44,895 nucleotides of DNA from Ottowia thiooxydans DSM 14619 (GTDB lineage Bacteria; Pseudomonadota; Gammaproteobacteria; Burkholderiales; Burkholderiaceae_C), in contig NZ_AUGX01000039.1 of NCBI RefSeq assembly GCF_000422885.1, positions 1 through 44,895 on the forward strand, given 5' to 3'. The position numbers and the translations under genes were made by a program. Below, in pieces: positions 9,239 to 44,568 of the stretch (position 1 is the first letter of the stretch; every line of letters begins with the position of its first letter). The notes under the pieces were generated by a model that worked only from the letters and a program-made list of their open reading frames with translations, was not told the origin of the DNA and did not search any database.

Positions 9239-9319
9239 ACGAATCCCTCATGCCCGCCGGACTCATTCAAAACCTCTGAATTCATTTCCCGCCATCCAAA
9301 CAACACCGGAGACAACACC

Positions 9320-10312: not shown

Positions 10313-10364
10313 CCCGCCTGCTTTTTCCCACTCTCCTCTGAATAAACCATTGCGCGACTACACC

Positions 10365-11387: not shown

Positions 11388-11441
11388 TAGCTCCGCCTCC
11401 GCGCACACCGTTTTCGCAGTCTGTTTTAAAGAAAAATCCAT

Positions 11442-12503: not shown

Positions 12504-12509
12504 AGCGCG

Positions 12510-27983: not shown

Positions 27984-28007
27984 GCTCTGATGATAATCGC
28001 CTCCACA

Positions 28008-28017
28008 GTCATATGAC
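28008..28017. promoter_or_regulatory. GTCATATGAC palindrome and GACAAC repeats in the divergent promoter
   Basis: Between the regulator and the divergent dehydratase lie the perfect 10-base palindrome GTCATATGAC and, directly after, two TGACAAC words in tandem (about 28014-28027). The place between two diverging genes suits an operator for the FCD regulator. Inferred only. Confidence 0.4.
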
Positions 28018-28086
28018 AACTGACAACATATTCATGCTGACAAAACTTTCTCGGCCGGAGCGCCCAATACACAAGCACGCCCAGAC

Positions 28087-29388: not shown

Positions 29389-29398
29389 CCACTTCACG

Positions 29399-30952: not shown

Positions 30953-30984
30953 CCGATTTCACACCACAACGAAGGAGACATCAT

Positions 30985-31965
30985 ATGCAACGCAGAACCG
31001 CACTTCAGGCCCTGGCGGCCAGCCTCGTAGCCACTGGCCCGACCGCTTTCGCACAAGGCGCCTGGCCTACCGGCAAAGCCATCACCTACCTTGTACCCTT
31101 CCCTCCCGGAGGCAACACCGACACGCTCGCACGCCTGATTGCACAGCCCCTGTCGGCTGCACTGGCCACGCCAGTCGTCATCGACAACAAGGGCGGTGCA
31201 GGCGGTAGTGTGGGATCAGCCATCGCCTCGCGCGCGCCGGCGGACGGCTATACGATCTTGGGCGGCACGATCAGTTCGCACTCGATCAACGGCAGCCTCT
31301 ACAGCACGCCCATTGGTTACGACATGGTGAAATCATTCTCACCCGTCGCGATGTTGGGTGTGAGCCCATTGGTGCTGGTGGTGCCTGCGTCCAGCCCATC
31401 GCGTACGCTTGACGATGTACTCAAAGCCAGCCGCGTCAAAAACGGCGGACTCACTTCCGGCTCCCCTGGCATTGGTACCTCGCCACACATGGCGCTGGAG
31501 CTTCTGGCCAGCCAGTCGGGTGTGAAGTTCACCCACGCCCCCTACAAGGGTTCGGGCCCGGCCGTTCAGGACCTGGTAGGTGGGCAGATCGACATGATGT
31601 TCGACACCAGCCTGGTGGTGGGTCCACACATCCAGAGCGGCCGACTGCGCCCCATCGCCATCACTGGCAGCCAGCGCGTTCCAGGCTTCCCCGATGTTCC
31701 AACCATCAGCGAAAGCGGACAAAAAGGCTTCGACATGGTCTCCTGGCAGGCGATGTTCGTACCGGCCGGCACACCGCAGCCCATCATTGACCGCCTGCAT
31801 GCCGAGGTGATGAAGGTGCTCGCGCTCCCCGAGATTCAAGCCCGGCTCAAGGGCTTCGGAATGGAGCCCTCCTCCATGACGCCTTCTCAGCTGGCCGCTT
31901 ATCAGAAGGTGGAAGTCGAAAAATGGGCCAAGGTGATCAAGCAAGCCGGCATCAAGGCTGAATAG
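30985..31965 (+). CDS. TTT/Bug-family periplasmic receptor 3 (aldarate cluster)
   Basis: A 326-residue TctC/Bug receptor with a strong ribosome site (GAAGGAGA) before the ATG at 30985; the open frame extends 28 codons upstream into garD but is not likely used. A Sec signal peptide (MQRRTALQALAASLVATGPT, cleavage near AFAQG) precedes WPTGKAITYLVPFPPGGNTD, VVIDNKGGAGGSVGSA, DGYTILGGTISSHSI, APYKGSGPAVQDLVGG and FPDVPTISESG. Placed last in the enolase-garD operon, it may bind glucarate or galactarate, a ligand class known for TTT or TRAP systems in relatives. No membrane partner gene is present. Confidence 0.92.
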   Translation: MQRRTALQALAASLVATGPTAFAQGAWPTGKAITYLVPFPPGGNTDTLARLIAQPLSAALATPVVIDNKGGAGGSVGSAIASRAPADGYTILGGTISSHSINGSLYSTPIGYDMVKSFSPVAMLGVSPLVLVVPASSPSRTLDDVLKASRVKNGGLTSGSPGIGTSPHMALELLASQSGVKFTHAPYKGSGPAVQDLVGGQIDMMFDTSLVVGPHIQSGRLRPIAITGSQRVPGFPDVPTISESGQKGFDMVSWQAMFVPAGTPQPIIDRLHAEVMKVLALPEIQARLKGFGMEPSSMTPSQLAAYQKVEVEKWAKVIKQAGIKAE

Positions 31966-32101: not shown

Positions 32102-33556
32102 TCAAAGAATGTGCTTCCATTTCGCACGCACCTTATCCTGCAGTTCCTTGCTGGCTTCGGCCACTTCAGGAAATTCGTTGATGAAGTCGAATGGACGGCA
32201 AGCGTCAATGATGGCCTTCGAATTGAAGGGCGCCTTATAGGGAAGAGCGATAGACATGGGGTCGTTTTTGGAGCCCATGCCTCGTCTGGTGATGTCAATA
32301 TCCATCTCGGGATCGGACCGCGTAGCGACCGCCCACATCACCTCCTGCATATTGGAGGGATCGATGTCCTCGTCCACAACCACCGAGTAACGCGACATAT
32401 AGGCACCCACGCCGCACTGGCTAAGAATGTGCCCAGCCTGGCGAGCATGGCCGGCGTAGCGCTGCTTGATCGACACCACGTTGAACATGCGCGCGCCCCC
32501 AATTTCATGCGCCCACACCGCTTGCACATCAGGCACACCAGCGGCGATCAACGAATCCATCAGCAAGGCTGATCGCATCACCGCTTTGGAATACGAGTAG
32601 TCATTAGGCGGCTTGGCAGGCGGGCTGCCCATGATGATGGGGTTGTTGCGGAAATAGACACGCTCCACAGTGACGACCGGTGCAGTCGCAGGCTTTCCAG
32701 GGTAGTAGCCATGGAACTCGCCGAACGGACCTTCAATGCGCTCGTCCCCAGGGTAGGCCCAGCCTTCCAGAACAATCTCAGCGTGGCTGGGGATGGGCAG
32801 ATCCGTCAATTGGCCGTGCACTACAGACACAGGCTGCTTCAGAATCGCACCGATGTAGTTGTACTCGCACATGCCAAAAGGCACTTCGATACCGGAGATC
32901 AGGTAACCAAGCGGGTCGCAGCCAATGACGATAGCGACGGGGAACGGCTTGCCCGCCTTCATGTATTTATCGTACTGGATGGCGCCGTGCTTGCCCGGAA
33001 TCATGTCAAGGCCGACATGGTTTTTGTCATGGACCATCACACGATAGGTGCCCACGTTGACCCAGTCAGAATCCAGGTCCTTGGTCACGACCATACAGCC
33101 GGTACCAATGTACCTGCCACCATCTTTCTCATGCCACAACGGAGATGGAAACGCCAGCACATCGACGGACTCCTTCTCCTGAATGTTTTCAAAGACCGGC
33201 CCCGTAGCTACTGCGACCGGGGGATAGTCTGCCGCCAAGCCTTGCCATTGTTTGGGCTTGCCCCGCAGCGATTGCGTCAGACCGGCATTTGTGGTCTCAA
33301 TCGGCAAGCGCAGGATCGAGGACAGACGCGCGGGGCTACTGGTGCTGCAGGTCATGACCCGGTGTCCCTTGGGGTAGCCCGGGATGTCGTCAAACAAGAG
33401 CGCGTTCGGCAAGTCTTTCTTGACATTCAGCTCACTGATAGCGCCGATTTCCAAGTCCCATTCGGCACCTGAAACCTCAGTCAGTTCACCCAACTTTTTG
33501 GTGTCTTCTATCCATGTCCGCAGATCCAGCGGATGACCAGTCAATGGTTTGCTCAT
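32102..33556 (-). CDS. UbiD-family decarboxylase
   Basis: A 484-residue prenylated-FMN-dependent (de)carboxylase. It has the N-terminal LRTWIEDTKKLGELTEV, the prFMN/metal-binding blocks TGPVFENIQEKESVDVLAFP and RYIGTGCMVVTKDLDSDWVN with VGTYRVMVHDKNHVGLD, then PIPSHAEIVLEGWAYPGDER and GPFGEFHGYYPG, which supply the Glu-Arg-Glu acid/base set. UbiD relatives act on aromatic, heteroaromatic (furan-, pyrrole-, pyridine-type) or alpha,beta-unsaturated acids. A dedicated UbiX gene lies two genes upstream, and a TTT receptor lies between, so this enzyme most likely decarboxylates the acid that is imported. It is not expected to be ubiquinone-pathway UbiD, because no ubi genes are near and the length and context differ. 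Confidence 0.93.
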   Translation of the reverse strand: MSKPLTGHPLDLRTWIEDTKKLGELTEVSGAEWDLEIGAISELNVKKDLPNALLFDDIPGYPKGHRVMTCSTSSPARLSSILRLPIETTNAGLTQSLRGKPKQWQGLAADYPPVAVATGPVFENIQEKESVDVLAFPSPLWHEKDGGRYIGTGCMVVTKDLDSDWVNVGTYRVMVHDKNHVGLDMIPGKHGAIQYDKYMKAGKPFPVAIVIGCDPLGYLISGIEVPFGMCEYNYIGAILKQPVSVVHGQLTDLPIPSHAEIVLEGWAYPGDERIEGPFGEFHGYYPGKPATAPVVTVERVYFRNNPIIMGSPPAKPPNDYSYSKAVMRSALLMDSLIAAGVPDVQAVWAHEIGGARMFNVVSIKQRYAGHARQAGHILSQCGVGAYMSRYSVVVDEDIDPSNMQEVMWAVATRSDPEMDIDITRRGMGSKNDPMSIALPYKAPFNSKAIIDACRPFDFINEFPEVAEASKELQDKVRAKWKHIL

Positions 33557-33616
33557 ACTTAACTCTCAGAAAAAATGGAAGTGTTTGGGGTGATACCAAC
33601 TTGCTGTCAAGAATAA

Positions 33617-33815
33617 AAACCGGTTCACGCTGAGCTTGCCCTGTCCTGGCGTTCTACGGGTTCTATCAAACAGCAAATGTCATTTGAGCCAAAAACCACC
33701 GTTCGGGCTGAGCTTGTCGAAGCCTTGCGCAACGCTTTGACCCTTCGACAAGCACACGACAGGCCTAGCTCAGCGCGAACGGTGTTTAGCGATTGAACGC
33801 AATTCGGTCTGAGCC
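33617..33815. repeat. REP-like composite intergenic repeat (copy 1)
   Basis: This gap between ubiD and receptor 4 holds no gene. It contains several copies of a GTTCGGGCTGAGCTTGTCGA-type word in both orientations. Bases 33698-33736 match 36673-36711 in direct orientation (38 of 39 identical), and 33769-33813 match the reverse complement of 36601-36645 (38 of 45). Words of this kind are widespread intergenic repeats in Burkholderiales. Confidence 0.8.
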
Positions 33816-33856
33816 ATCCCATGAAAGTGCGTTCAGAAGATTAGGGCGTGTTCGCA

Positions 33857-34849
33857 CTAATCTTCAATTTTGAAATCCATGGCCTTGATCAGACGGCTCC
33901 ACCGGCCCATCTCCTCCTGCATGTACTTTTCAGGATCGGCCACAACCAGCATCTCGGCACCTGCTTGCTGAACGTTTGCGGCAAACGCCGCATCGCCAGC
34001 GACTTTTCTCGTCACGCCCCGCAAGGTCTCCAGCACGGGCTTGGGTAAGTTTGCAGGAGCGAAGAGTGCATTGAACACCACGACTTTCATGTCAGGCATA
34101 CCGCTTTCAACGGCTGTCGGAATATCAGGTGCAGACTTCAGGCGCGTTGGGCTGTTAACCGCCAGAATACGAATTCGACCAGAGCGGTGATGGCCCAGAA
34201 CCGCTGAAGACATGATGGGCGTGGCCAACTGCAAATGGCCGGCAATCACATCTGCCATGGCCGGACCACCGCCTCTGTACGCTACATGCGTGATTTGCAG
34301 CTTTCCGTTGAGATATTTGAAAAGTTCGCCTGTCAGGTTGGTGATGGTGCCGGCACCGGCTGAGCCGTAAGACAGCTTGTCCGGCTGGCTGCGTGCCAAG
34401 GCAGCCAGCTCCTGAAGATTTTTAGCCGGCACGGAGGGGTGAACGAGCACACAGGTGGGGTTGGCACTAACCGGGCCGACCATCACGAAATCTTTCAGAC
34501 CATCGTATTGCGGCTTGGCCGAAGCCAGCGGATTAACGATCTGCGTCGTGGTGGTTCCCAGCAGCAGGTTGTAGCCATCTGGCTTGGATCGCGCGACTTC
34601 ACTGGCACCAATCACTCCGCCAGCCCCCGCCTTGTTGTCGATGATGAAGTTAAACCCGGAGAGAGGCGCGGCGGCCTTGGCCCAGTAACGGGCCATCACG
34701 TCGCCATCTCCGCCAGGCGCGAAGGGCACCACAATCCGGATGGCACGGTCAGGGTAGCTCGTTTGGGCGTTGGCCTGAAAGCCTAAGCCGGCGGCCGGAA
34801 TGCTGGCTACGCCCATCACAAAATCACGTCGAGAGATGGTTCTCTTCAT
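33857..34849 (-). CDS. TTT/Bug-family periplasmic receptor 4 (UbiD/UbiX cluster)
   Basis: A 330-residue TctC/Bug receptor. The leader MKRTISRRDFVMGVASIPAA has the SRRDF twin-arginine motif, suggesting Tat export. The mature protein shows YPDRAIRIVVPFAPGGDGDV, FIIDNKAGAGGVIGA, DGYNLLLGTTTTQIV, HVAYRGGGPAMADVIAGH and APDIPTAVESG. The ATG at 34849 has GGAGAAAG upstream; in-frame starts up to 34876 are less likely. It sits between ubiX and ubiD on the same strand, so it probably captures the carboxylate that UbiD processes. Confidence 0.92.
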   Translation of the reverse strand: MKRTISRRDFVMGVASIPAAGLGFQANAQTSYPDRAIRIVVPFAPGGDGDVMARYWAKAAAPLSGFNFIIDNKAGAGGVIGASEVARSKPDGYNLLLGTTTTQIVNPLASAKPQYDGLKDFVMVGPVSANPTCVLVHPSVPAKNLQELAALARSQPDKLSYGSAGAGTITNLTGELFKYLNGKLQITHVAYRGGGPAMADVIAGHLQLATPIMSSAVLGHHRSGRIRILAVNSPTRLKSAPDIPTAVESGMPDMKVVVFNALFAPANLPKPVLETLRGVTRKVAGDAAFAANVQQAGAEMLVVADPEKYMQEEMGRWSRLIKAMDFKIED

Positions 34850-34956
34850 CTGTACTTTCTCCATGTCCGCTATCAACAGAAAATCAAGTCAAAGACTTCA
34901 ATCCACATCCGGCGGAATGAAGATTTCGCTGGCGCGCGCAAAAGGCAGTGCGTTGC

Positions 34957-35544
34957 TCATGGCTTGCCCATGCCGTTCCACCGGCGCACCAAATCGGTGT
35001 CTATATCGAAAAGATCCAGACACCGACCCACGGTGTGATTGACCATGTCATCAATGGAGCGCGGCCTCACGTACATCGCAGGCACGGGGGGCATGATCAC
35101 TGCGCCGTTTTCGCTGGCTTGAAGCATGGCTTTGAGATGACCGTGGTGCAGAGGGGTTTCACGCACCATCAGGACAAGCCGGCGGCGCTCTTTCAACACC
35201 ACATCGGCCGCACGCGTCAGCAGGCCTGTGGTGTTGCCGTAAGCAATCTCGGAAAGTGAGCGAATGGAACATGGAGCCACAACCATGCCCATCGTCTTGT
35301 AGGACCCCGAAGAAATGGTGGCACCGACGTTCTTGGCGTGATGAACCTCGAAGGCCAGACTCTCGACCTCTTTCACCGACATATCGACCTCTGCGGCAAT
35401 GGTCAACTTCGCGGAGTCGCTCATCACCAAGTGAGTCTGGATGTCCGATCCCTGAAGTACCTGCAAAAGGCGCACGCCAAAAATGGCACCTGAAGCACCA
35501 CTAATGCCGACGATAAGGCGCCTGGGACTGGGACTGTTGGACAT
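34957..35544 (-). CDS. UbiX-family flavin prenyltransferase
   Basis: A 195-residue FMN-binding protein that attaches a dimethylallyl group to reduced FMN, making the cofactor needed by UbiD enzymes. It has the N-terminal GISGASGAIFGVRLLQVL phosphate loop, SSGSYKTMGMVVAPCSIRSL and GLLTRAADVVLKERRRLVLM with RETPLHHGHLKAMLQASENG, all standard for UbiX/Pad1. The start is set at the ATG 35544; 35553 is an alternative. It is next to the LysR gene and in line with receptor 4 and ubiD. A second UbiX copy dedicated to a catabolic UbiD is a common arrangement in aromatic-acid clusters. Confidence 0.93.
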   Translation of the reverse strand: MSNSPSPRRLIVGISGASGAIFGVRLLQVLQGSDIQTHLVMSDSAKLTIAAEVDMSVKEVESLAFEVHHAKNVGATISSGSYKTMGMVVAPCSIRSLSEIAYGNTTGLLTRAADVVLKERRRLVLMVRETPLHHGHLKAMLQASENGAVIMPPVPAMYVRPRSIDDMVNHTVGRCLDLFDIDTDLVRRWNGMGKP

Positions 35545-35611
35545 GGGGGTCACCGAAAAACTTCACTCGAAATGGTATAGACCGATTGTGAGCAAAGTAG
35601 GACGAATATGA

Positions 35612-35625
35612 CCAACGAGTAATTT
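35612..35625. promoter_or_regulatory. Shared 14-base word CCAACGAGTAATTT upstream of ubiX
   Basis: CCAACGAGTAATTT lies 68 bases upstream of the ubiX start, in the gap to the LysR gene. The identical word, inverted, lies at 39350-39363 in the promoter of the hydrolase/Mo-hydroxylase operon. Exact sharing of 14 bases in two promoters of one gene neighbourhood suggests a common regulator, most simply the adjacent LysR protein. Confidence 0.55.
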
Positions 35626-35628
35626 CGC

Positions 35629-36579
35629 TCAGTCCCATGAAAATGGCTCATGAAGCCCTGGGCCAGCCACGATGGGGGTGGTTGGCACAGTCTGTGCAAA
35701 GTGCGCCAACAACCAGCGTTTGAATTTCTGCACTTTGGGCAGTGCGGATCGTTCAGGCCTGCTCAGCACATGGTAGCCAGCGGGCGAACGGTAGCGGAAC
35801 GTGAAAGGTTCAACGAGCCGCCCGCTTTCCAGATCCTTGCCCACCAGCATGGAACGCCCAATGCCGACGCCCAAGCCTTCAATGATGGCGTTCATGGCGA
35901 ACGCCAATGTTCCGCAATGAACCTCGCTCGCAAAGGTGTCCACCTCGGAATTGGACTCACGCAACCATACGGTCCAATCGTCGGTGATGATGGGCGATGC
36001 AGTACGCACGATGGGATAGTGCCGCAGATCATCGGGAATACGCAGCGGGGGACCTGACGAAAACAGCGCTGGCGTGCACACCGGGAAGATATCTTCATCG
36101 GCGATCTTCTGTGCATCGAAATCCGGCCAGTCGTCTATTCCGTGCCAAATCGCGACATCGAAGTCGCATTGCTCCAGCCGGTCTGTTGGCGCCAGTGGCA
36201 TCAGTCGCAGTTCGATGTTCGGGTTCATGGCCAGAAACTCCGGCAATGCAGGCGTCAGGCACTTCGCGGAGAACGCAAAGAGGCACGCAATCGTGAGCCG
36301 GTTGTCGTGCACCGAGGACACGCTCTCCGTGGCCGCTGCGATCTGGGCGATCGCCGGGCGCACGCACTCCAAATAGATCCGTCCCTCGTTCGTGAGCTTA
36401 GTCACGTTCTGCTTGCGGGTGAACAACTGAATGCCCAGCAGGCTCTCTAACTCCTTGATCCGGTGGCTGATCGCGGTCTGAGTGATGTTCAGTTCTGATG
36501 CACCCCGGGTGAAACTCTGGTGACGCGCAATCGCCTCCAGGGCGAGCAACGCGTTAAGCGGGGGCATGGGTCTTCGCAT
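35629..36579 (-). CDS. LysR-family regulator (GcvA-like)
   Basis: A 316-residue LysR-type factor. The DNA-binding domain is at 5-64 (PPLNALLALEAIARHQSFTR, ASELNITQTAISHRIKELES, LGIQLFTRKQNVTKLTNEGR), and the type-2 periplasmic-binding-fold sensor spans about 95-300 (LTIACLFAFSAKCLTPALPE, DFDVAIWHG, GLGVGIGRSMLV). PPLNALLALEAIARHQSFT is typical of the GcvA/AmpR subgroup. It is the first of four same-strand genes (LysR, ubiX, receptor 4, ubiD) and the nearest regulator of the divergent hydroxylase operon, so it probably senses the imported acid or an intermediate. Confidence 0.92.
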   Translation of the reverse strand: MRRPMPPLNALLALEAIARHQSFTRGASELNITQTAISHRIKELESLLGIQLFTRKQNVTKLTNEGRIYLECVRPAIAQIAAATESVSSVHDNRLTIACLFAFSAKCLTPALPEFLAMNPNIELRLMPLAPTDRLEQCDFDVAIWHGIDDWPDFDAQKIADEDIFPVCTPALFSSGPPLRIPDDLRHYPIVRTASPIITDDWTVWLRESNSEVDTFASEVHCGTLAFAMNAIIEGLGVGIGRSMLVGKDLESGRLVEPFTFRYRSPAGYHVLSRPERSALPKVQKFKRWLLAHFAQTVPTTPIVAGPGLHEPFSWD

Positions 36580-36888
36580 CGGGATTGTCGGTGGGCGCCT
36601 TTCAGACTGAATTGCGTTTAATCAATAAACACCGTTCAGGCTGAGGTTCTATGGTTTTGATCAACTATTAAAACCGTTCGGGCTGAACTTGTCGAAGCCT
36701 TGCGCAACGCTTCGACAACCTCAGCGCGAACGGATCTTTCCAGCAAATCCGTAAGATTCAGGCGCACTGGTTTTGGGGAATGTCTCTTTAAGTCGCATTG
36801 TCAGGCCGAGCAGCCTGAATGGTCACAAGGGATGACCCGACCTATTGCAAGTTTCGTCTGTTCTACGCCGCCCCAGGAGGGCGCCCGC
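36580..36888. repeat. REP-like composite intergenic repeat (copy 2)
   Basis: No gene is seen in this 309-base gap between LysR and ridA. Bases 36601-36645 are an inverted copy of 33769-33813, and 36673-36711 a direct copy of 33698-33736. GAGGTTCTATGGTTTT at 36643-36658 also occurs at 44621-44636 beside the IS110-type gene. An inner inverted pair TTGTCGAAGC / GCTTCGACAA (36689-36718) forms a hairpin. Bases 36740-36888 show nothing further. Confidence 0.8.
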
Positions 36889-37314
36889 TCAAAGAGCTGC
36901 AACCGCTTCGATCTCCAGGCTGCACCCGTAGTGCAGGGTTGGAACGGGCACCACTGCACGCGCAGGCCGCGTGGCCCCTATCCACTCAGCATAAATCGCG
37001 TTAAAGCCCGGCCATAAGCCTATGTCCGTGATGTAAACGCGAACCTGCACTATCTTTTCGATCGAGCTGCCTCCCCCGTGTACCGCGCGGGCCACATTGG
37101 CCAGAACCTGGCGGGCTTGGACCTCGAAGGGCGCATCGCTCAAGACTTTGCCATCTGGCGCCACAGGGAGTTGCCCCGAAACAAACAGCAGTCCGCCCGC
37201 GCTCGCCACGTGGCTATAGTGCCCGCCCGGGGGAGCCATGCCCTCGGGGGTCGTCATGGTCCAAAATGGTGCAGATTCCATCAATGTCTCCAGATTCCGT
37301 GCGTTGTCGTTCAT
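36889..37314 (-). CDS. RidA/YjgF-family protein, possible enamine/imine deaminase
   Basis: A 141-residue RidA-family protein, which forms trimers and hydrolyses reactive enamines or imines; catabolic members include 2-aminomuconate deaminase and aminoacrylate deaminase (RutC). Seen are YSHVASAGGLLFVSGQLPVA, the helix ARQVLANVARAVHGGGSSIE, VQVRVYITDI and the catalytic Arg119 in TRPARAVVPV, with the closing SLEIEAVAAL. It starts 6 bases after the solute-binding-like gene, with its ribosome site (GAAGG) inside the gap. In this cluster it could deaminate an enamine formed after opening of an N-heterocyclic ring. Confidence 0.88.
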   Translation of the reverse strand: MNDNARNLETLMESAPFWTMTTPEGMAPPGGHYSHVASAGGLLFVSGQLPVAPDGKVLSDAPFEVQARQVLANVARAVHGGGSSIEKIVQVRVYITDIGLWPGFNAIYAEWIGATRPARAVVPVPTLHYGCSLEIEAVAAL

Positions 37315-37320
37315 ACCTTC

Positions 37321-38100
37321 TCAGGCGACTGGAGGCGCTACCCGCGCGCCCACAATGCCGTTGCGTTTGAGGGATCGTGCCACGAACCCGTCTGCCTTCA
37401 TGTCTTCAACAAACTCGTGCACCACCGCAACGACAGCGTCGCTTCGCCCAGCGGGAACACCAATCGCCTGCTGAATGGTCATGAAGTCCCCCGGCAGCAT
37501 TCGGAGGCCTGGAAAACGCAAACCATCCGCCTCTAACTGCTGGCGAACACCAGCGGCCACATCGGCATTGGTACGCAGGAATTCGTCAACGACCGTCGGG
37601 GAAGTTGGAGCGCGCTCGACGCTGGCATGTTTGAGTTCCCGCGTCAGAAAAAGGTCGTACGCACTGCCTGCCCCCACCACCACGCGCAGGCCCGCTTGAT
37701 CCACGTCATCAATGGATCTCAGCGGAGACGCTTCTCGAACCATATATGCGCCCTGAATCAGTACGTAGGGTGGCGCAAAGCGCAATTGAGCGGCACGTGC
37801 AGGGTCCAGAGCAAAAAAGCCCACGTCCGCCTCCCCTTTCGCAATGGCGTCCACTGACTTCCCCGCGCTGTCAAACACCACCGTCTCCAGCGCCACACCC
37901 AATCGGCCCGCCAGCGCACGCGCGAGATCCACGGACACACCGCGAGGCTCTCCGTGAATGTCAGCCCGACTCGCCAACACCGGATTTCCCAGATTGATCG
38001 ATACACGCAATGCCCCGGTGGGAGCAATCTCTTTGACGAGATCGGGGTTCAATTCAGCTCTGCCTTCATCGGTTGGAACACAGACGACTCTGCCATTCAT
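37321..38100 (-). CDS. Family 3 solute-binding-like protein without a signal peptide
   Basis: A 259-residue protein with the type-2 periplasmic-binding fold of amino-acid ABC receptors (SBP family 3): GALRVSINLGNPVLAS, GVSVDLARALAGRLGVALE, AIAKGEADVGFFALDPARAA, FAPPYVLIQGAYMV, and RVVVGAGSAYDLFLTREL in the second lobe. It lacks a signal peptide: the start ATG overlaps the stop of receptor 5 (ATGA), and the N-terminus MNGRVVCVPTDEGRAELN is hydrophilic. No ABC permease or ATPase gene is near. It may be a cytoplasmic enzyme or sensor built on this fold (as cyclohexadienyl dehydratase is built on it), or the true start was misplaced, but no upstream hydrophobic stretch exists in frame before receptor 5. 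Confidence 0.8.
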   Translation of the reverse strand: MNGRVVCVPTDEGRAELNPDLVKEIAPTGALRVSINLGNPVLASRADIHGEPRGVSVDLARALAGRLGVALETVVFDSAGKSVDAIAKGEADVGFFALDPARAAQLRFAPPYVLIQGAYMVREASPLRSIDDVDQAGLRVVVGAGSAYDLFLTRELKHASVERAPTSPTVVDEFLRTNADVAAGVRQQLEADGLRFPGLRMLPGDFMTIQQAIGVPAGRSDAVVAVVHEFVEDMKADGFVARSLKRNGIVGARVAPPVA

Positions 38101-39092
38101 TCCAATTTGATGTTGACCTTCTTGGCCACATCGCGGTAGCGGGCGACGTCTTTGCGAATACGGTCTGCAAACTCTGCGGACGGCATGCCCCCCACTTCTG
38201 CGCCGGCATCCGCGAAACGCTTCTTGACATCAGGATCTTGCAGCGTCTTGGCAACTTCCGCGTGAAGCTTGGCCATGACATCAGAAGGCACGCCCTTGGG
38301 AGCGAACAACCCAACCCAGTTCGACGCATCAACGTTCTTGACTCCAGCCTCATTGGCGGTCATCCAGGCGTTGTTGTAGGGAGTACGGCGTGCCGTAGTG
38401 AGACCCAGCACCTTGACCCGGCCCGACTGCACATGCGGCATCACAGCCGGCACCGCCACCACGCCCAGGGGAACCTCCCCAGAAGCGACGGCAGCCACCG
38501 CGGGTGCGCCACCTTTGTAGGGCACATGAAGCAACTTGGCTCCGGCTTCCAGGGAAAACCACTCACCAGCGAGATGATTCACACTGCCATTTCCGGGCGA
38601 AGAAAATGCCAGCTTGCCTGGGTCCTTCTTTTCAGCGGCCACCAGTTCCTGGATAGTGTTGTAGGGCTCTTTGGCGTTAGCCACCAGCAGCATGGGGGTA
38701 TCACTGATCATGGTGATCGGCGCGAAGTCCCGGTCCAGGTCATAGGGAACGGAAGGAAAGATCGCGGGGTTAACTGCGAATTCACCAGTGTGAGCCGTCA
38801 GCAGCGTGTAGCCATCTGCAGGCGCCTTGGCGACGTAAGACACGGCGATGAAACCATTGCCGCCTGGCTTGTTGTCCACAATGAAGTTCCACCCCAAACG
38901 CTCAGTCATCTTCTGCGTGAGAATGCGCGCCGTCACATCGACCACACCTCCGGGCGCGAATGGCACCACCACTCGGATCGGGCGGCTCGGAAACGCTTGG
39001 GCAAAAGCCGCACTACTCAGAAGTAGCTGTGAAGCCACCAAGGCTCCCAGCATAAGGGTATTGCGGCGCTTTGAGATCCATCGAGTGGTCAT
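38097..39092 (-). CDS. TTT/Bug-family periplasmic receptor 5
   Basis: A 331-residue TctC/Bug receptor. A Sec-type leader (KRRNTLMLGALVASQLLLSS, cleavage near AFAQA) precedes FPSRPIRVVVPFAPGGVVDV, FIVDNKPGGNGFIAV, DGYTLLTAHTGEFAV, HVPYKGGAPAVAAVASGE and RTPYNNAWMTANEAG. The ATG at 39092 has GCAGGAGAC upstream. It is first in a minus-strand operon with the solute-binding-like gene (4-base overlap) and ridA, and is divergent from the hydrolase/Mo-hydroxylase operon, so it may import the substrate of that enzyme. Confidence 0.92.
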   Translation of the reverse strand: MTTRWISKRRNTLMLGALVASQLLLSSAAFAQAFPSRPIRVVVPFAPGGVVDVTARILTQKMTERLGWNFIVDNKPGGNGFIAVSYVAKAPADGYTLLTAHTGEFAVNPAIFPSVPYDLDRDFAPITMISDTPMLLVANAKEPYNTIQELVAAEKKDPGKLAFSSPGNGSVNHLAGEWFSLEAGAKLLHVPYKGGAPAVAAVASGEVPLGVVAVPAVMPHVQSGRVKVLGLTTARRTPYNNAWMTANEAGVKNVDASNWVGLFAPKGVPSDVMAKLHAEVAKTLQDPDVKKRFADAGAEVGGMPSAEFADRIRKDVARYRDVAKKVNIKLE

Positions 39093-39397
39093 TTAGTCTC
39101 CTGCAGAGTGCGTGTTTATTCCAAAATCCCCGTAATGGTCGAGAACACAGCGCTTGCGGTCAAACGAAAAAATTTGGTGACCGGCATCAATCGAGTTCAT
39201 GCCTTGGCGCAAATGATCAGATCGGGCGACCAGCAACCCTCAACAAACGAACGTAAATCTGGTCCAACGCATCGCCCTTAGCGCCCGCCGCTCACATCAC
39301 GCATCACGCATCACGCATCACGCATGAGTGATTTTGATCACCCACCTGAAAATTACTCGTTGGACCAGAAGGGAGGTCGCTGCGAATAATCCCGTCC
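39093..39397. promoter_or_regulatory. Divergent promoter with a long-spaced 12-bp inverted repeat
   Basis: TCTGGTCCAACG (39258-39269) is exactly mirrored by CGTTGGACCAGA (39358-39369), 88 bases apart, between receptor 5 and the alpha/beta hydrolase. The right-hand arm overlaps the inverted 14-base word shared with the ubiX promoter (39350-39363). Four tandem CATCACG units (39295-39322) lie between the arms. Spaced inverted sites of this kind fit a regulator that bridges two sites. The rest of the gap shows no gene. Confidence 0.6.
39295..39322. repeat. Heptamer tandem repeat CATCACG x4
   Basis: Four exact copies of CATCACG, then CATGAGTG, in the divergent promoter between receptor 5 and the hydrolase gene, between the two arms of the inverted repeat. 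Change in copy number would alter arm spacing. Confidence 0.85.
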
Positions 39398-40222
39398 ATG
39401 AAGCTTACCGGACCCAACACTCAGACGCTGACCTCAAGTGACGGCGTTCCCATTCATTACCGTGTGCATGGGTCCAGCGCGGATCTACCCGTAGTGGCGC
39501 TCATCCACTCCCTCGCCATGGATCACCGATTCTGGGATCCGGTGGCGAAGCTGCTGGAAGGCCAGGCCTGCGTGGTTGCCATCGACGCACGGGGGCACGG
39601 AAAGTCTGGCCGTGGCACCGCCCCACTCACAGCGGCGCGTATGGCTGACGATCTGCTCGATGTGCTGGATGACTTGCAGGTTCCTCAAGCCGTTGTCGGT
39701 GGCGCATCTATGGGAGGGTGCCTGGCTCTGCAGTTTGCGGGCACACACCCAGAGCGCTGCTCCGGCCTGGCGCTGATTGACACCACCGCCTGGTACGGAC
39801 CCACAGCACCCAAAGATTGGGAAGATCGGGCGATGAAGGCCAAGTCTCAAGGCCTGTCTGCGTTGGTCGATTTCCAGAAGACCCGCTGGTTCAGCGAAGC
39901 GTTTTCTCTGCGCGAACCAAGCGTGGTGGACGACAGCATAGCCATCTTCCTGGCCAACGATATCGACGCCTATGTGGCAACCTGCCGCATGATGGGCGCG
40001 TTTGATGGTCGCGGATTCCTCGCCAATATCCACATGCCCACGCGCATCCTGGTCGGTGATGAAGACTATGCCGCACCAGTCGCCATGGCGCAGGTACTGC
40101 ATGAGGGCATCACAGGCTCCCGGCTTGACATCATCCCTGGCGCCCGCCACCTCACGCCGCTGGAAGTGCCACATATCGTGGCCGACACCTTGCGGGCCCT
40201 GTGCCAGGAGAATCAGCAATGA
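39398..40222 (+). CDS. Alpha/beta hydrolase (3-oxoadipate enol-lactonase-like)
   Basis: A 274-residue alpha/beta-hydrolase. The catalytic triad is visible: nucleophile Ser104 in VGGASMGGCLAL, Asp223 in LVGDEDYAAP and His251 in PGARHLTPLEVPH; the oxyanion region is ALIHSLAMDHRFW. PcaD-like enzymes open enol-lactones of ring-cleavage products; meta-cleavage hydrolases and amide hydrolases are related. It is first in the plus-strand operon and its stop overlaps the FAD-subunit start by 4 bases (ATGA), so its reaction should be part of the same pathway as the Mo hydroxylase, for example hydrolysis of a lactone or lactam after ring hydroxylation. Confidence 0.9.
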   Translation: MKLTGPNTQTLTSSDGVPIHYRVHGSSADLPVVALIHSLAMDHRFWDPVAKLLEGQACVVAIDARGHGKSGRGTAPLTAARMADDLLDVLDDLQVPQAVVGGASMGGCLALQFAGTHPERCSGLALIDTTAWYGPTAPKDWEDRAMKAKSQGLSALVDFQKTRWFSEAFSLREPSVVDDSIAIFLANDIDAYVATCRMMGAFDGRGFLANIHMPTRILVGDEDYAAPVAMAQVLHEGITGSRLDIIPGARHLTPLEVPHIVADTLRALCQENQQ

Positions 40223-41088
40223 CCCCATTTGAGTACCTGTTGCCGTACTCGCTTGACGAAGCGCTCAGCTTGCTGGACCCGGAAGACCCCGGCATTCGAC
40301 CGGTCAGTGGCGGGACAGCCATCATGCTCATGATGAAGGCCGGCGTACTCACACCGACCCGCCTGGTCAGCCTGCACAAGATTGGCGAGCAACATTCGGC
40401 TATTCAAACCAATGCCGCAGGCGAGCTCTTGATTGGCGGCATGGCCAGGTTGGCCGACATTGAGCGCCACCCCACGGTGCGTGAAAAATGCCCTTTGCTA
40501 AGCCAGGCGCTTCGTGGCGTGGCAAACCCACGCGTTCGCGCAGTCGCCACCATCGGCGGCAATTTGAGCCACGCTGATCCTCACCTGGACATGCCACCCG
40601 TGCTCTCCGCGCTGAGCGCTCGGGTAGTGATCACTGGCCCCAATGGGGTTCGCACCGTGAATGCAGAAGACTTCTGCACCGGCTACTACGAAACTGTGGT
40701 GAAACGCGACGAGCTTGTCACCCAGATCATCGTGCCGGCGCAAGCTGGACCTGGCGCTTATCTGAAGCTCACCACGCGCGCTGCGCATGACTGGCCCGCA
40801 CTAGGCATCGCATTGGTGCTGAAAGTGGTCGACGGCAAGGTGCAGAGTTCCAACATTTTTACGGGCGCAGCTACCGACCGCCCGACACGGTTGCTTCAAG
40901 CCCAGTCTGTGCTCGAGCAGCAGGGCCTGGCTGAGCCAGCCTTGCGCGCAGCCGGCGAAGCCGCAGTAGCTGAAACGACCTTGATGGAAGACGCCCACGG
41001 CTCCGTCGCCTACAAAAGCCAGTTGCTCAGAATCGCCCTACCCCGGGCTGTAGACAACGCCCTTCGCCACAGCCGGAGCCATGCATGA
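40219..41088 (+). CDS. Molybdenum hydroxylase, FAD-binding subunit (CoxM/CutM type)
   Basis: A 289-residue medium subunit of a xanthine-oxidase-family enzyme. It binds FAD through PVSGGTAIMLMMKAG and ATIGGNLSHADPHLDMPP and has the C-terminal CO-dehydrogenase flavoprotein domain (TRAAHDWPALGIALVLKVVD, FTGAATDRPTRL). It passes electrons from the 2Fe-2S centres to the external acceptor. The true start is ATG 40219, overlapping the hydrolase stop (ATGA); an upstream in-frame start at 40201 is unlikely. It overlaps the large subunit by 4 bases. Order here is M-L-S, all coupled. Confidence 0.92.
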   Translation: MTPFEYLLPYSLDEALSLLDPEDPGIRPVSGGTAIMLMMKAGVLTPTRLVSLHKIGEQHSAIQTNAAGELLIGGMARLADIERHPTVREKCPLLSQALRGVANPRVRAVATIGGNLSHADPHLDMPPVLSALSARVVITGPNGVRTVNAEDFCTGYYETVVKRDELVTQIIVPAQAGPGAYLKLTTRAAHDWPALGIALVLKVVDGKVQSSNIFTGAATDRPTRLLQAQSVLEQQGLAEPALRAAGEAAVAETTLMEDAHGSVAYKSQLLRIALPRAVDNALRHSRSHA

Positions 41089-43400
41089 GCACAGTTACCA
41101 CCCCTGAACGCCAGGTTGGTCGCGCCGTTGATCGCCTGGAGTCCCGCTCCAAGGTCACAGGCGCTGCAGACTACACCCACAACGTCACCCTGCCCCGCAT
41201 GCTGCACGCCAAGGTCGTCCGCAGCACGCAGGCGCACGCGCGCATCCTGTCCATCGATACAGAGGCAGCCCGCGCAGTAGCCGGCGTGTTCAAGGTCATC
41301 ACCGCCCGCGAAGTCATCGAAGTGATTCCAGATCCACACTACGGACCTGCTTTTCACGACCAACCCATCCTGGCTATTGAAAAGGTGCGCCACATTGGTG
41401 AACCTGTAGCTGTAGTGCTGGCCGAAGACGTGCACGTGGCGGAGATGGCCGCAGGCCTGGTGAACGTGGAGTACGAAACACTGCCCGCCGTGTTCGACGA
41501 AGTCCATGCGGCGCACCACACCGACGTTCTGGTGCACGACGTACTCCGCCCCGCAGGCACCTTTCCCGATCTCAAGCACCTGGCCGGCCGCAAGGGAACC
41601 AACGTGGCCCTGGACTACCGCCTGCGGCACGGCGACGTCGACAAAGCATTTGCCGAAGCGGCGCATGTGTTTGACCACACTTTCCGCACGCAGCAGGTCA
41701 TGCACACGCCCATGGAGCCGATGATTTCGATCGCCGAGCTGCAAGACCACGGCATCATCATTCACACGGCGTCTCAAAGCCCTTCATTCGTACGCCTGGA
41801 AATCGCCCGACTGTTAGGCTGGCCTGAGAACCGCGTGCAGGTGAAAACGCGCCTACTTGGCGGCGGTTTCGGCGCCAAGTTGTATATCAAGATCGAGGCG
41901 CTTGCCGTAGCTCTGGCGCTCATCGCTCGCCGCCCCGTGCGTGTAGCCCTCACGATGGAAGAACAGTTCTACACCATCACCAAGCACGCCACTACGTTCC
42001 GCATTCGCAGTGCGGTGGACCAAAGCGGTCACATCACAGGGCGCCACTGCGAGGTGTACTGGAATGGCGGTGCCTACGCAGACATCGGGCCACGAGTCAC
42101 GCAGAAATCCGGCTTTACGGCCGGTGGCCCCTACGACATCGCCAACCTCAGCATCGATTCTTATCAGGTCTACACCAACCTGCCCCCCGCCGGCGCCTTT
42201 CGGGGCTTCGGCATCACGCAGGTGGTGTGGGGTTACGAGTGCCAGGCGGACTTGATCGCACGTCACCTCGGCATGGACCCACTTGAGTTCCGCCGTCTCA
42301 ACCTGCTGGAAAACGGCCGCCCCCATGCCACAGGTACCGTGATGAAAGATGCGGCCCTGCGCATGGTGCTGGACCGCGTGGCCGAGCGCATCGAATGGGA
42401 CAAGCCCTTCGAGCGAGGCCTGGCTACGGTGCGGCGCGGGCGCGGCGTAGGGCTGGGGTTTAAAGCTCTCGTGGCACCCACCACTTCCGTCGCTACGATC
42501 ACGCTTGCGGGCGATGGCAGCTGCACCTTGCTCATCAGCACAGTAGATATGGGACAGGGCTCGGACACGGCCATGGCCATCGTCGCCGCGGACGTGCTGG
42601 GCATTACAGCCGAAAGCATTCGGGTCGTGCATGCGGACACAGACGTCACGCCATACGACATGGCCACACTGGGCTCACGCTCCACCTTCTCCATGGGCAA
42701 CGCCGTCAAACTGGCAGCAGAGAATCTACTAGTGCGGCTACGCAGCCTCGGCGAGGAAGTAGGCATGCCTTACGAAAGCATGGGGATGGCGGCCTATTTG
42801 CTGAAGAAAAAATTCGGCATGCAGGCTGGCACTCTGGTGGGCACCGGGAGCTTCATACCCTCCTACACCTCACCCGATGCCGATGGCCGCTCGCCAGACA
42901 TCACACCCAACTGGATGATTGGCGGCACCGGCGTGGAACTGGAAGTCGACACCGAGACCGGTCACTTTCGCATCCTGCGCATGGAAAACGTGGTTGACTG
43001 CGGTACCCCGCTGAACCCCAAGGTCGTGGAAACACAGATCTCCGGCGCGGCCATCATGCAGCTCGGAATGGTTCATCTGGAAAAAATGGAGTTTGACAGC
43101 GAGGGACAACTGCGCAATGCCTCGTTCTCAGAGTACAAGATTCCCGGCATCCTCGATATTCCGGAGCACTTTGGATGCGATGCCGTGGAGTCCAGGCAGG
43201 CCAGCGGCCCCTATGGTGCGAAGGGCATAGGGGAAAGCGGTTGCTTCGGTGTGGCCTCTGCAGTGGCTGAGGCCATCCACGATGCCGTGGGCGTACGCAT
43301 AACCTCCCTACCCATCACGCCGGAGGCCGTGTTCCGAGCACTAGCCGAACAAGCCGGTCAGCCTTTGGCCGCCAATCCCACCGAGAGAACACAGCCGTGA
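41085..43400 (+). CDS. Molybdenum hydroxylase, molybdopterin-binding large subunit
   Basis: A 771-residue catalytic subunit with molybdopterin cytosine dinucleotide cofactor, hydroxylating a ring carbon with water-derived oxygen. Features are GRAVDRLESRSKVTGAADYT, VRSTQAHARILSID, MHTPMEPM, RLLGGGFGAKLYIKIEALAV, the PPAGAFRGFGITQVVW loop at about 365-380, TVDMGQGSDTAMAIVAADVL and the catalytic Glu in KGIGESGCFGVASAVAEAIH (around 717). The CODH-specific loop AYxCSFR is absent, so it is not carbon-monoxide dehydrogenase; it belongs with the purine, nicotinate, isoquinoline or furoyl-CoA hydroxylases. Its exact substrate cannot be told. Upstream and downstream overlaps (4 bases each) couple it to the other subunits. 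Confidence 0.93.
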   Translation: MSTVTTPERQVGRAVDRLESRSKVTGAADYTHNVTLPRMLHAKVVRSTQAHARILSIDTEAARAVAGVFKVITAREVIEVIPDPHYGPAFHDQPILAIEKVRHIGEPVAVVLAEDVHVAEMAAGLVNVEYETLPAVFDEVHAAHHTDVLVHDVLRPAGTFPDLKHLAGRKGTNVALDYRLRHGDVDKAFAEAAHVFDHTFRTQQVMHTPMEPMISIAELQDHGIIIHTASQSPSFVRLEIARLLGWPENRVQVKTRLLGGGFGAKLYIKIEALAVALALIARRPVRVALTMEEQFYTITKHATTFRIRSAVDQSGHITGRHCEVYWNGGAYADIGPRVTQKSGFTAGGPYDIANLSIDSYQVYTNLPPAGAFRGFGITQVVWGYECQADLIARHLGMDPLEFRRLNLLENGRPHATGTVMKDAALRMVLDRVAERIEWDKPFERGLATVRRGRGVGLGFKALVAPTTSVATITLAGDGSCTLLISTVDMGQGSDTAMAIVAADVLGITAESIRVVHADTDVTPYDMATLGSRSTFSMGNAVKLAAENLLVRLRSLGEEVGMPYESMGMAAYLLKKKFGMQAGTLVGTGSFIPSYTSPDADGRSPDITPNWMIGGTGVELEVDTETGHFRILRMENVVDCGTPLNPKVVETQISGAAIMQLGMVHLEKMEFDSEGQLRNASFSEYKIPGILDIPEHFGCDAVESRQASGPYGAKGIGESGCFGVASAVAEAIHDAVGVRITSLPITPEAVFRALAEQAGQPLAANPTERTQP

Positions 43401-43885
43401 GCACGACAAGCACACTCATTCAATTTCGCCTCAACGGCGAGCCCGTCTCTAGGCAAATCGAGTCTTACAGCACTCTCGTAGAGGTGGTTCGCGGGTGCGG
43501 GCTGAATGGCGCACGCGAAAGCTGCGGCCAGGGGCTCTGCGGTTGCTGCACGGTGGTGGTTGACGGCAAGGCCGTGACAGGCTGCCTGCACCCCGCCATG
43601 CACGTGGATGGCTGCGATGTCGCCACCATAGAAAGCCTGGAACAAGACGGCCAACTCGATCCCGTGCAGCAAGCATTCATTGATGCAGGCGCGTTTCAGT
43701 GCGGCTTTTGCACGCCCGGCTTCATCCTCATGTCCAGGCAATTGCTGGAGCAAAACCCCAATCCCACAGACCACGAGATCCGGCACTACCTGGCCGGCAA
43801 TCTGTGCCGCTGCGGGGCCTATCCAGAAATCGTCAAGGCCGTGAAGCTGGCTGGCGAGCGAATCCGCGCGGCCAGCCGCCCCTAA
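43397..43885 (+). CDS. Molybdenum hydroxylase, 2Fe-2S small subunit
   Basis: A 162-residue iron-sulfur subunit with two 2Fe-2S clusters: the plant-ferredoxin-like CGQGLCGCCTVVVDG with a further Cys in VTGCLHP, and the all-helical C-terminal cluster CGFCTPGFILMSRQLL / LAGNLCRCGAYPEIVKAV. It relays electrons from the molybdenum site to FAD. Translation starts with GTG at 43397, overlapping the large-subunit stop (GTGA). Length and motifs are standard for CoxS/CutS proteins. Confidence 0.94.
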   Translation: MSTTSTLIQFRLNGEPVSRQIESYSTLVEVVRGCGLNGARESCGQGLCGCCTVVVDGKAVTGCLHPAMHVDGCDVATIESLEQDGQLDPVQQAFIDAGAFQCGFCTPGFILMSRQLLEQNPNPTDHEIRHYLAGNLCRCGAYPEIVKAVKLAGERIRAASRP

Positions 43886-43899
43886 GAAAGAAAAATATC

Positions 43900-44568
43900 A
43901 TGGAAATCCAAGGCGAACGACTCCTTGCCGTGCCACGTGCAGATGTATGGCGCGCACTTAACGATCCAGCCGTACTCCAGCGGTGTGTGCCCGGCTGTGA
44001 TGCCTTCGAAGCAGATGGCGAAGATAAGTACCGTGTCGCGATGCAGGCGACTGTCGGCCCCGTACGCGCTCGTTTCACCGGCAAACTACTGATCAGCGAT
44101 GTCGTGCCGCTCACCTCTTACGCATTGAACTTTGAAGGATCGGGCGGTGTCGCCGGGTTCGGCAAGGGCACAGCCAACGTGTTCCTGGAAGATGCGGAGG
44201 AAGGGACCCGCTTGCGCTACAACGCACAAGCACAAGTCGGCGGACGTTTGGCTCAGGTAGGTGCCCGCTTGATCGACGGCGTGACGAAGCGAATGGCTGA
44301 TGATTTTTTTACGCGGTTCACTAACGAACTTACTGCTCCAACGGTTGGGGAATCAGCACAAACAGGAAGCGTCAGCGAAAAAAAATCAAGGACCACTCCA
44401 ACCACCGCTGTACAAGCCACCTCCATCACTCACGGGGACAGGCCAGAACAACAAGCAGCCTCTTCGCCTCAGAGCAACCATATCGCGGTGCTCGCTGCAG
44501 CGGTATCAGCAACAGCAGCGGCCGTCGCGGTCCTCGCGGCGCTGTTCGTCATACGATTCACCGCTTAG
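43900..44568 (+). CDS. CoxG-like SRPBCC protein with C-terminal membrane anchor
   Basis: A 222-residue protein. Residues 1-145 form a CoxG-type SRPBCC domain (AVPRADVWRALNDPAVLQRC, VGPVRARFTGKLLISD, GGVAGFGKGTANVFLEDAEE, RYNAQAQVGGRLAQVGARLI). A low-complexity Thr/Ser/Gln linker follows, then a single transmembrane helix (AVLAAAVSATAAAVAVLAAL). In carbon-monoxide-oxidising bacteria CoxG anchors the Mo enzyme to the membrane; the same role is likely here. The ATG at 43900 is preceded by AAGAAAG; an upstream frame into the small-subunit gene is a shadow. It is the last gene of the operon. The maturation genes usually associated (CoxDEF or XdhC type) are not in the window. Confidence 0.9.
   Translation: MEIQGERLLAVPRADVWRALNDPAVLQRCVPGCDAFEADGEDKYRVAMQATVGPVRARFTGKLLISDVVPLTSYALNFEGSGGVAGFGKGTANVFLEDAEEGTRLRYNAQAQVGGRLAQVGARLIDGVTKRMADDFFTRFTNELTAPTVGESAQTGSVSEKKSRTTPTTAVQATSITHGDRPEQQAASSPQSNHIAVLAAAVSATAAAVAVLAALFVIRFTA

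Follow-up and report, generated by a model that had tools for sequence, protein, structure and literature searches.

A putative two-part catabolic gene cluster in Ottowia thiooxydans that links a UbiD-family decarboxylase with a molybdenum hydroxylase module

The genome of Ottowia thiooxydans DSM 14619 (assembly GCF_000422885.1) carries a cluster of 12 genes that might together serve the breakdown of a heteroaromatic acid. The window analyzed is the whole stretch of 44,895 nucleotides at positions 1-44,895 of contig NZ_AUGX01000039.1, and the cluster occupies 32102-44568 (Table 1). Pfam and NCBIfam profile scans of the 12 proteins encoded there gave clear family matches for every gene that had been named in an earlier note on this DNA, in the same order and orientation. 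A block carrying the genes for LysR, UbiX, TctC, and UbiD (the ubi block) and a second block for TctC, a protein resembling solute-binding proteins (SBP-like), and RidA lie on the minus strand, and both diverge from a plus-strand block for a hydrolase, the three subunits of a molybdenum (Mo) hydroxylase, and CoxG. The earlier description of four-base overlaps as linking most of these genes holds for the hydrolase/FAD, FAD/Mo, Mo/[2Fe-2S], and TctC/SBP-like pairs, but these make up only four of the nine junctions inside the three blocks. At the first of them, the FAD-subunit gene begins with an ATG at 40219, within the last four bases of the hydrolase gene. The SBP-like and RidA genes are separated by 6 bases and the [2Fe-2S] and CoxG genes by 14, whereas the ubi block contains no four-base overlap and has gaps of 75, 80, and 300 bases. 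The CoxG gene most likely starts with the ATG at 43900; a longer open reading frame (ORF) from 43699 overlaps the [2Fe-2S] gene. A strict scan of five intergenic stretches, including the divergent region, for T-N11-A dyads revealed no LysR boxes.

Table 1. Features of the cluster, with the evidence for each assignment
Feature	Position	Strand	Basis
UbiD	32102..33556	-	Pfam UbiD N, Rift, and C domains; TIGR00148 above cut-off; clade with motif PPNDYSY
TctC receptor A	33857..34876	-	Pfam TctC, 185 bits; start codon uncertain
UbiX flavin prenyltransferase	34957..35553	-	NCBIfam PRK06029.1 and TIGR00421 above cut-off
LysR regulator	35629..36579	-	Pfam HTH_1 and LysR_substrate
RidA-type enamine/imine deaminase	36889..37314	-	Pfam
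SBP_bac_3-fold protein (SBP-like)	37321..38100	-	Pfam SBP_bac_3
TctC receptor B	38097..39092	-	Pfam TctC, 221 bits
Divergent intergenic region between receptor and hydroxylase operons	39093..39397	.	Sequence
PcaD-like alpha/beta hydrolase	39398..40222	+	TIGR02427, 197 bits (cut-off 256)
Mo hydroxylase FAD subunit	40219..41088	+	Pfam FAD_binding_5 and CO_deh_flav_C
Molybdopterin large subunit (Mo subunit)	41085..43400	+	Pfam Ald_Xan_dh_C, MoCoBD_1, and MoCoBD_2
[2Fe-2S] subunit	43397..43885	+	Pfam Fer2_2
CoxG/SRPBCC protein	43900..44568	+	Pfam COXG, 105 bits

UbiD is predicted to be a decarboxylase that uses prenylated flavin mononucleotide (prFMN), as judged from its family domains and intact active-site residues, and UbiX would be expected to supply this cofactor. 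Relatives were collected through a UbiD-seeded scan of genome contigs, from which the best 80 of 90 (69-87% identity) were kept, and all counts over these 80 loci are ascertained through UbiD. An alignment of 81 rows was built from the window protein, 79 of the 80 loci (L095 was excluded for low coverage), and Paraburkholderia caribensis L096. The Glu-Arg-Glu residues R172, E275, and E280 are kept in every row, and position 320 is Tyr in 79 rows and Phe in two. UbiX relatives of 59% identity are no more than about 3 kb from UbiD in L016, L021, and L095, and about 19 kb from it in P. caribensis. Passages of PMC7976604 place His (H297) of HmfF and Asn (Asn318) of HudA at the specificity position, where the Tyr of the window clade suggests another specificity. 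An HmfF-type decarboxylase of 2,5-furandicarboxylate was rejected on the grounds that Tyr320 stands opposite a His in the Geobacillus kaustophilus sequence, and a HudA-type pyrrole-2-carboxylate decarboxylase was rejected because Asn318 aligns with Tyr320. HudA (PA0254) is likewise a UbiD-family decarboxylase of a heteroaromatic acid (passages of PMC7976604). The window UbiD reaches only 176-178 bits with HudA, compared to 333 bits with 7pda, its best match in the PDB. We know of no Mo partner of HudA. Elsewhere in the host genome, positions 50000-66000 of contig C22 (L106) hold another UbiD-family gene near a TctC-like gene and a TctA gene, which form a separate locus combining UbiD with a tripartite tricarboxylate transport (TTT) system.

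The Mo domains, the FAD subunit, the cluster cysteines, and an active-site Glu are all present, which places the enzyme among the three-subunit Mo hydroxylases of the xanthine dehydrogenase family on sequence grounds. Glu717 of the Mo subunit, which we take to be the C-terminal active-site residue, lies in a GIGESG motif and is kept in all 60 aligned rows. Of seven cluster cysteines examined in the [2Fe-2S] subunit, six are invariant across 66 rows, and the position of Cys50 is Cys in 61 rows, the window among them. The 4-hydroxybenzoyl-CoA reductases have an additional [4Fe-4S] insertion within the FAD subunit. The window FAD subunit (295 amino acids) matches a 321-position model in two pieces, with the best ending at residue 123, which suggests that the insertion is missing. 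An identity as CO dehydrogenase was rejected because NCBIfam scores fall far below the cut-offs. The C-terminal tail of CoxG, as read from its translation, is hydrophobic. Two further relatives of the Mo subunit (30-32% identity) are encoded on other contigs of the host. In Halalkalibacter oceani (L040, 14248-16692), the UbiD/Mo cluster is followed directly by molybdopterin biosynthesis genes, as though it carried its cofactor supply along.

The PcaD-like hydrolase is proposed to act on a lactam or lactone. Its catalytic triad (Ser104, Asp223, and His251) is kept in 14 of 14 rows, and its score with the PcaD model stays under the cut-off that identifies a 3-oxoadipate enol-lactonase. RidA similarly falls short of its general model (91 bits with TIGR00004, cut-off 106), and its Arg119 and Tyr33, presumably active-site residues, are kept in 19 of 19 rows. 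The motif LH[HYF]G occurs in 17 of these rows (the window and 16 of 18 relatives), with two Alicyclobacillus sequences lacking it. Beyond the 19 rows, L133 has the motif and L134 does not (LHHD), and the two PDB relatives with alignments shown have LP at this position. Thus, the window protein appears to belong to a RidA subgroup specific to this module. At the position of Glu136, 16 of 18 aligned relatives have Gln and two have Asp, while L133 has Glu and L134 has Gln. The Pfam scan revealed no pyridoxal phosphate enzyme or oxygenase among the 12 proteins. Any enamine substrate of RidA would therefore need to be supplied by the ring, most simply by a ring-opened N-heterocycle.

The earlier note also pointed out two TTT receptors. 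Both are of the TctC type, but only receptor B is conserved with the system. Receptor A, which adjoins UbiD in the window, finds best matches of just 25-41% across the 80 loci. Receptor B has relatives of at least 45% identity in 34 of them, in each case within 400 bp of UbiD, and relatives of 63-75% in the UbiD-less loci L132-L134 (partial in L133). Neither receptor has a linked TctA membrane gene, given that the four TctA genes of the host lie on contigs C2, C3 (two), and C22 and none on the window contig, C32; TctB was not searched for. The SBP-like protein has relatives of 50-66% in L018, L021, L132, L133, and L134. No signal peptide was recognizable by eye in the window protein or in these five relatives, and the protein is therefore probably cytoplasmic. 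Its closest PDB chains are cyclohexadienyl dehydratases (E ~1e-10), an activity that was rejected because a Gln stands at the position of the presumed catalytic Glu.

Gene calls in the relatives' loci were codon-based, since longest-ORF calls in GC-rich loci gave antisense frames. Early Pfam scans of these loci may have included antisense frames, and little weight falls on the proteins that gave no match there. The proposal that UbiD and the Mo hydroxylase are conserved together was borne out when viewed from UbiD. The Mo or [2Fe-2S] subunit (at least 45% identity) lies near UbiD in 64 of the 80 loci, four of which (L025, L062, L063, and L094) count through the [2Fe-2S] match alone, and in 35 of the 38 loci with both flanks of at least 9 kb. 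The [2Fe-2S] gene is found no more than 400 bp directly upstream of UbiD in 42 loci. Among 11 loci of paralogous UbiD proteins (34-37% identity, stretches of 7-19 kb), none has a Mo hydroxylase subunit. Sixteen loci have no Mo match, and three of these (L022, L073, and L095) still contain further module genes. The association was seen in records from beta- and alphaproteobacteria, acidobacteria, and Bacillota, and its recurrence across other genera and phyla indicates more than chance. As had been expected, the hydrolase, RidA, and receptor B also recur with the UbiD/Mo pair, though only in some loci (12, 14, and 34 of 80, respectively), and RidA is present in 11 of the 12 UbiD loci that have the PcaD-like hydrolase. 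Eight metagenome-assembled genome (MAG) records titled Bordetella parapertussis (L029, L035, L036, L049, L050, L064, L072, and L075) carry the pair, although their species labels look doubtful.

Searches seeded with the Mo subunit covered 399 family, 398 phylum, and 369 class genomes, partly overlapping and each including the host's own genome, with at most two candidates scored per genome. The subunit proved to be rare, appearing in three of 398 other family genomes and one of 397 other phylum genomes (E <= 1e-150), and in none of 368 other class genomes (1e-190). The four loci found in this way (L132-L135, with Mo identities of 81, 80, 72, and 66%) all contain the hydrolase, FAD, Mo, and [2Fe-2S] genes. 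Receptor B and the SBP-like protein are present in three of them, as is a CoxG relative in three, and the module of L133 includes a LysR relative of 73% identity. In the Mo tree, the window is nested among the UbiD-less L132-L134, and the deeper sampled branches, which were sampled through UbiD, are UbiD-linked. Presence of UbiD requires at least four changes on this tree, and UbiD was likely lost in some lineages or regained in that of the window.

The gene content of the cluster varies between lineages. An AMP-binding ligase-like gene is found in 14 of the 80 loci and a 4HBT thioesterase-like gene in eight, in both cases in Paraburkholderia and Pigmentiphaga, and both genes also occur in P. 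caribensis L096 and the UbiD-less L132. In Bacillota, a relative of the PF04199 cyclases is present in seven of 80 loci (assigned to Pfam from L086 and L040), compared to the PcaD-like hydrolase in 12, and the two never share a locus. The strongest hint of hydrolytic ring opening is that two unrelated hydrolases alternate in this way, even though the pattern also follows phyla. Loci from Halalkalibacter, Aneurinibacillus, and Alteribacillus additionally encode an RraA-like protein and XdhC, and carriers of the MFS family in the relatives are nearest to the aromatic-acid symporter family, under its cut-off. Hydantoinase A/B genes stand directly before UbiD in L068 and L093, which have no Mo gene in the stretch examined. 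In these two loci (at about 3.5-14 kb), a second, longer UbiD (~550 amino acids) lies close to the first and recurs in Halalkalibacter L040 and L046 and in P. caribensis L096; it may represent a second UbiD system or a pathway with two decarboxylases. A GMC-type oxidoreductase gene adjoins UbiD in L038 and the Mo module in L132 (51% identity between them), possibly as an upper route for an alcohol or aldehyde. A VanA-type oxygenase near two loci was dismissed because it is just 33% similar over a partial length.

The closest known parallel is the hmf pathway for 2-furoate and 2,5-furandicarboxylate, in which UbiD/UbiX decarboxylation, a three-subunit Mo hydroxylase, and hydrolytic ring opening deliver a product to central metabolism (passages of PMC6604932 and PMC6678421). 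The pathway proper comes from Cupriavidus basilensis HMF14, and the reference used here is an hmf-like cluster on pHTA426 of G. kaustophilus, so named from its gene content. The window shares with hmf UbiD/UbiX, the three-subunit Mo hydroxylase with its CoxG gene, and the hydrolytic opening, but it adds RidA and a dedicated hydrolase, whereas no lactonase is assigned to hmf (PMC6678421). Identities to the reference are 28% for the Mo subunit, 29% for the FAD subunit, 33% for UbiD, 42% for the [2Fe-2S] subunit, and 54% for UbiX; the Mo, FAD, and UbiD proteins are thus no orthologues of their hmf counterparts. Membership was rejected because UbiD has Tyr in place of His at the specificity position and because the Mo subunit, at 28%, is no furoyl-CoA dehydrogenase orthologue and stands far from the hmf type (in a tree with long branches). 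Thus, by sequence comparison the cluster resembles hmf in outline but does not belong to it. The missing CoA ligase, which the earlier note had held against an hmf route, is a weak argument because sister clusters carry the ligase-like gene. The Pfam scan found no CoA ligase or crotonase-type HmfE domain among the 12 proteins, and the host genome has no match to the ligase of sister cluster L017 (E <= 1e-60, in a search run with no positive control); HmfD and HmfE were not searched for genome-wide.

Other systems share parts of the gene set. The pyrimidine Rut pathway pairs a RidA-like protein, RutC, with an alpha/beta hydrolase, RutD, a combination of families also present in the window. However, the window hydrolase scores 197 bits with PcaD compared to 67 bits with RutD, below both cut-offs, its RidA reaches only 54 bits with RutC (cut-off 169), and no RutA-like domain was found in the window proteins scanned. 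Plasmid pA of Ancylobacter polymorphus has RidA, LysR, hydrolase, SRPBCC, FAD, Mo (65%), [2Fe-2S], and MFS genes in one cluster, but no UbiD, SBP-like protein, or TctC is annotated in the fetched stretch, whose annotation is incomplete. Rhodococcus erythropolis BG43 plasmid pRLCBG43 (L102) carries a more distant form, an SRPBCC-FAD-Mo-FeS-hydrolase-LysR array (Mo 41%, hydrolase 43%), and the annotation of the stretch examined shows neither UbiD nor RidA. No described pathway with exactly the gene set of the cluster was found in the open papers of PubMed Central, of which the search covered part, in agreement with the earlier note.

Taken together, the genes suggest a two-part catabolic cluster, a reading for which confidence is evenly balanced. 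Its core would be a Mo-hydroxylase module comprising LysR, RidA, the SBP-like protein, receptor B, the PcaD-like hydrolase, the FAD, Mo, and [2Fe-2S] subunits, and CoxG, with UbiD/UbiX as an optional linked entry. Receptor B, working with TTT membrane proteins encoded elsewhere, would bring in a (hetero)aromatic acid, and UbiD with prFMN from UbiX would remove CO2. The Mo hydroxylase would then place a water-derived oxygen onto the ring carbon beside the heteroatom to give a lactam or lactone, which the hydrolase would open. Finally, RidA would convert the resulting enamine to a keto or aldehyde acid and ammonia. Such a route would need no oxygenase. We infer the order of steps, the nitrogen in the ring, and the substrate from the gene set; judgement leans modestly toward a nitrogen atom in the ring and somewhat away from a five-membered ring.

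This sequence of uptake, decarboxylation, hydroxylation, hydrolysis, and deamination, which had been put forward in the earlier note, gains from the co-conservation of UbiD with Mo and from the partial recurrence of the other genes, and several observations weigh against it. The two halves had been expected to be conserved together, and UbiD loci do mostly have Mo, but the Mo half also occurs without UbiD in four genomes. No UbiD above 33% identity is found in any of the four genomes located through Mo, and among four plasmid records with Mo of at least 54%, a UbiD of at least 60% is present only on that of P. caribensis (for the other three, the plasmids alone were considered). The halves are therefore separable, the UbiD/Mo coupling is strong but one-sided, and entry through UbiD seems to be linked but optional. 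Three of the 38 full-flank UbiD loci also have no Mo match (L022, which has other module genes, L038, and L083). Furthermore, the module is not always whole, since within the fetched flanks the betaproteobacterial MAG loci have no RidA, and hydrolase matches there reach just 22-27% in three loci. RidA is found in only two of the four stretches L132-L135, and the variable position of its Glu136 makes its reaction uncertain. The ligase-like and thioesterase-like genes of sister loci hint at CoA esters there, and sequence alone fixes no substrate.

One alternative is that two separate systems happen to be neighbors, with the Mo hydroxylase, hydrolase, and RidA serving one compound and UbiD, UbiX, and receptor A, inserted beside them, serving another. 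The window Mo subunit, nested among three same-family loci that lack UbiD, would fit this arrangement, as would the failure of those genomes, and of G1027, to yield any UbiD above 33% identity, the widely spaced ubi block that stands as its own unit, and the occurrence of UbiD without Mo in the stretch examined (for example in L083, and in L068 and L093 beside hydantoinase A/B). However, full-flank loci across phyla nearly always join the two enzymes (35 of 38), the Mo subunits of UbiD loci cluster in trees with the UbiD-less ones nested inside, and receptor B, here part of the Mo module, adjoins UbiD in 34 loci. Separate systems are thus considered rather unlikely. In a CoA-ester route parallel to hmf, UbiD would first remove a second carboxyl group, a ligase would form the CoA ester, the Mo enzyme would hydroxylate the ring of that ester, the lactone would be opened, and a thioesterase would act last. 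The sister ligase-like and 4HBT genes fit such a route, as do the GMC oxidoreductase and an aldehyde dehydrogenase of L132, which would suit an alcohol/aldehyde upper route and have the 51% GMC counterpart beside UbiD in L038. The L132 GMC protein, however, scores 405 and 377 bits with other GMC enzymes and only 245 bits with 5-hydroxymethylfurfural oxidase. The lack of a ligase among the 12 proteins and of a match to the L017 ligase in the host genome (E <= 1e-60), the distance of the Mo subunit from the hmf type, and a furan that would leave RidA without a role all count against this route, and neither sister ligase type was matched in the fetched betaproteobacterial MAG and Bacillota loci (other ligases were not searched for). 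It is viewed as distinctly unlikely.

A pyridine-type substrate would instead be hydroxylated by Mo enzymes to a dihydroxypyridine, whose imide tautomer would be opened by hydrolysis. Mo hydroxylases of pyridine compounds are common, and the degradation of isonicotinate via citrazinate provides a precedent for a hydrolytically opened dihydroxypyridine. In addition, a Mo subunit of 60% identity on a plasmid of Alicycliphilus adjoins the tricarballylate/cis-aconitate genes tcuAB near a second Mo hydroxylase. The cluster at 32102-44568 has just one Mo hydroxylase and no amidase, notwithstanding the two distant Mo relatives elsewhere in the host, and the lactam of a pyridone resists hydrolysis on chemical reasoning. 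A pyridine is therefore judged unlikely, and because this alternative overlaps the two-part reading, the likelihoods expressed here sum to more than one. The plasmid in question, pDP3 of Alicycliphilus denitrificans (L099), flanks a branched-chain-type ABC transporter with its two Mo hydroxylases, beside tcuAB, and looks like a pathway ending in cis-aconitate, possibly that of isonicotinate. The Mo enzyme could also be an aldehyde oxidase that produces the acid for UbiD to decarboxylate. Its protein family also contains aldehyde oxidoreductases, and the adjacency of the [2Fe-2S] and UbiD genes would fit consecutive steps. Yet this option leaves the hydrolase and RidA unexplained, the module is also found without UbiD, and the option is regarded as very improbable.

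Two other regions of the window deserve mention. Beside the cluster, 27144-31965 encodes a GntR regulator, an enolase-superfamily enzyme, a galactarate/altronate dehydratase-like enzyme, and a TctC receptor, and is probably a sugar-acid cluster. Farther away, 8573-13382 has genes for GntR, two TctC receptors, an isocitrate/isopropylmalate-dehydrogenase-like enzyme, and an amidohydrolase in a row, which probably form another orphan-receptor catabolic cluster.

Under the two-part reading, the ring that the three enzymes could finish unaided is five-membered and of the pyrrole type. A tentative and rather doubtful extension is a route for a pyrrole-type carboxylate free of both oxygenase and CoA, in which UbiD would act first, the Mo hydroxylase would form a pyrrolinone, and the PcaD-like hydrolase, or the PF04199 enzyme in Bacillota, would open its lactam before a specialized RidA deaminates the enamine. 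On chemical reasoning, the product would be succinate semialdehyde, or 2-oxoglutarate if one carboxyl group remains on the ring. If true, this route would mirror the hmf furan pathway for a nitrogen ring, and its decarboxylase would be a modular entry. More broadly, the recurrent and patchily distributed module would assign a role to three protein groups, namely a UbiD clade marked by a distinctive active-site signature, a clade of Mo hydroxylases, and a RidA subgroup. If the chemistry holds, the cluster would represent a water-based means of opening heteroaromatic rings that bears on the turnover of N-heterocycles, and could also supply enzymes for decarboxylation and hydroxylation under mild conditions.

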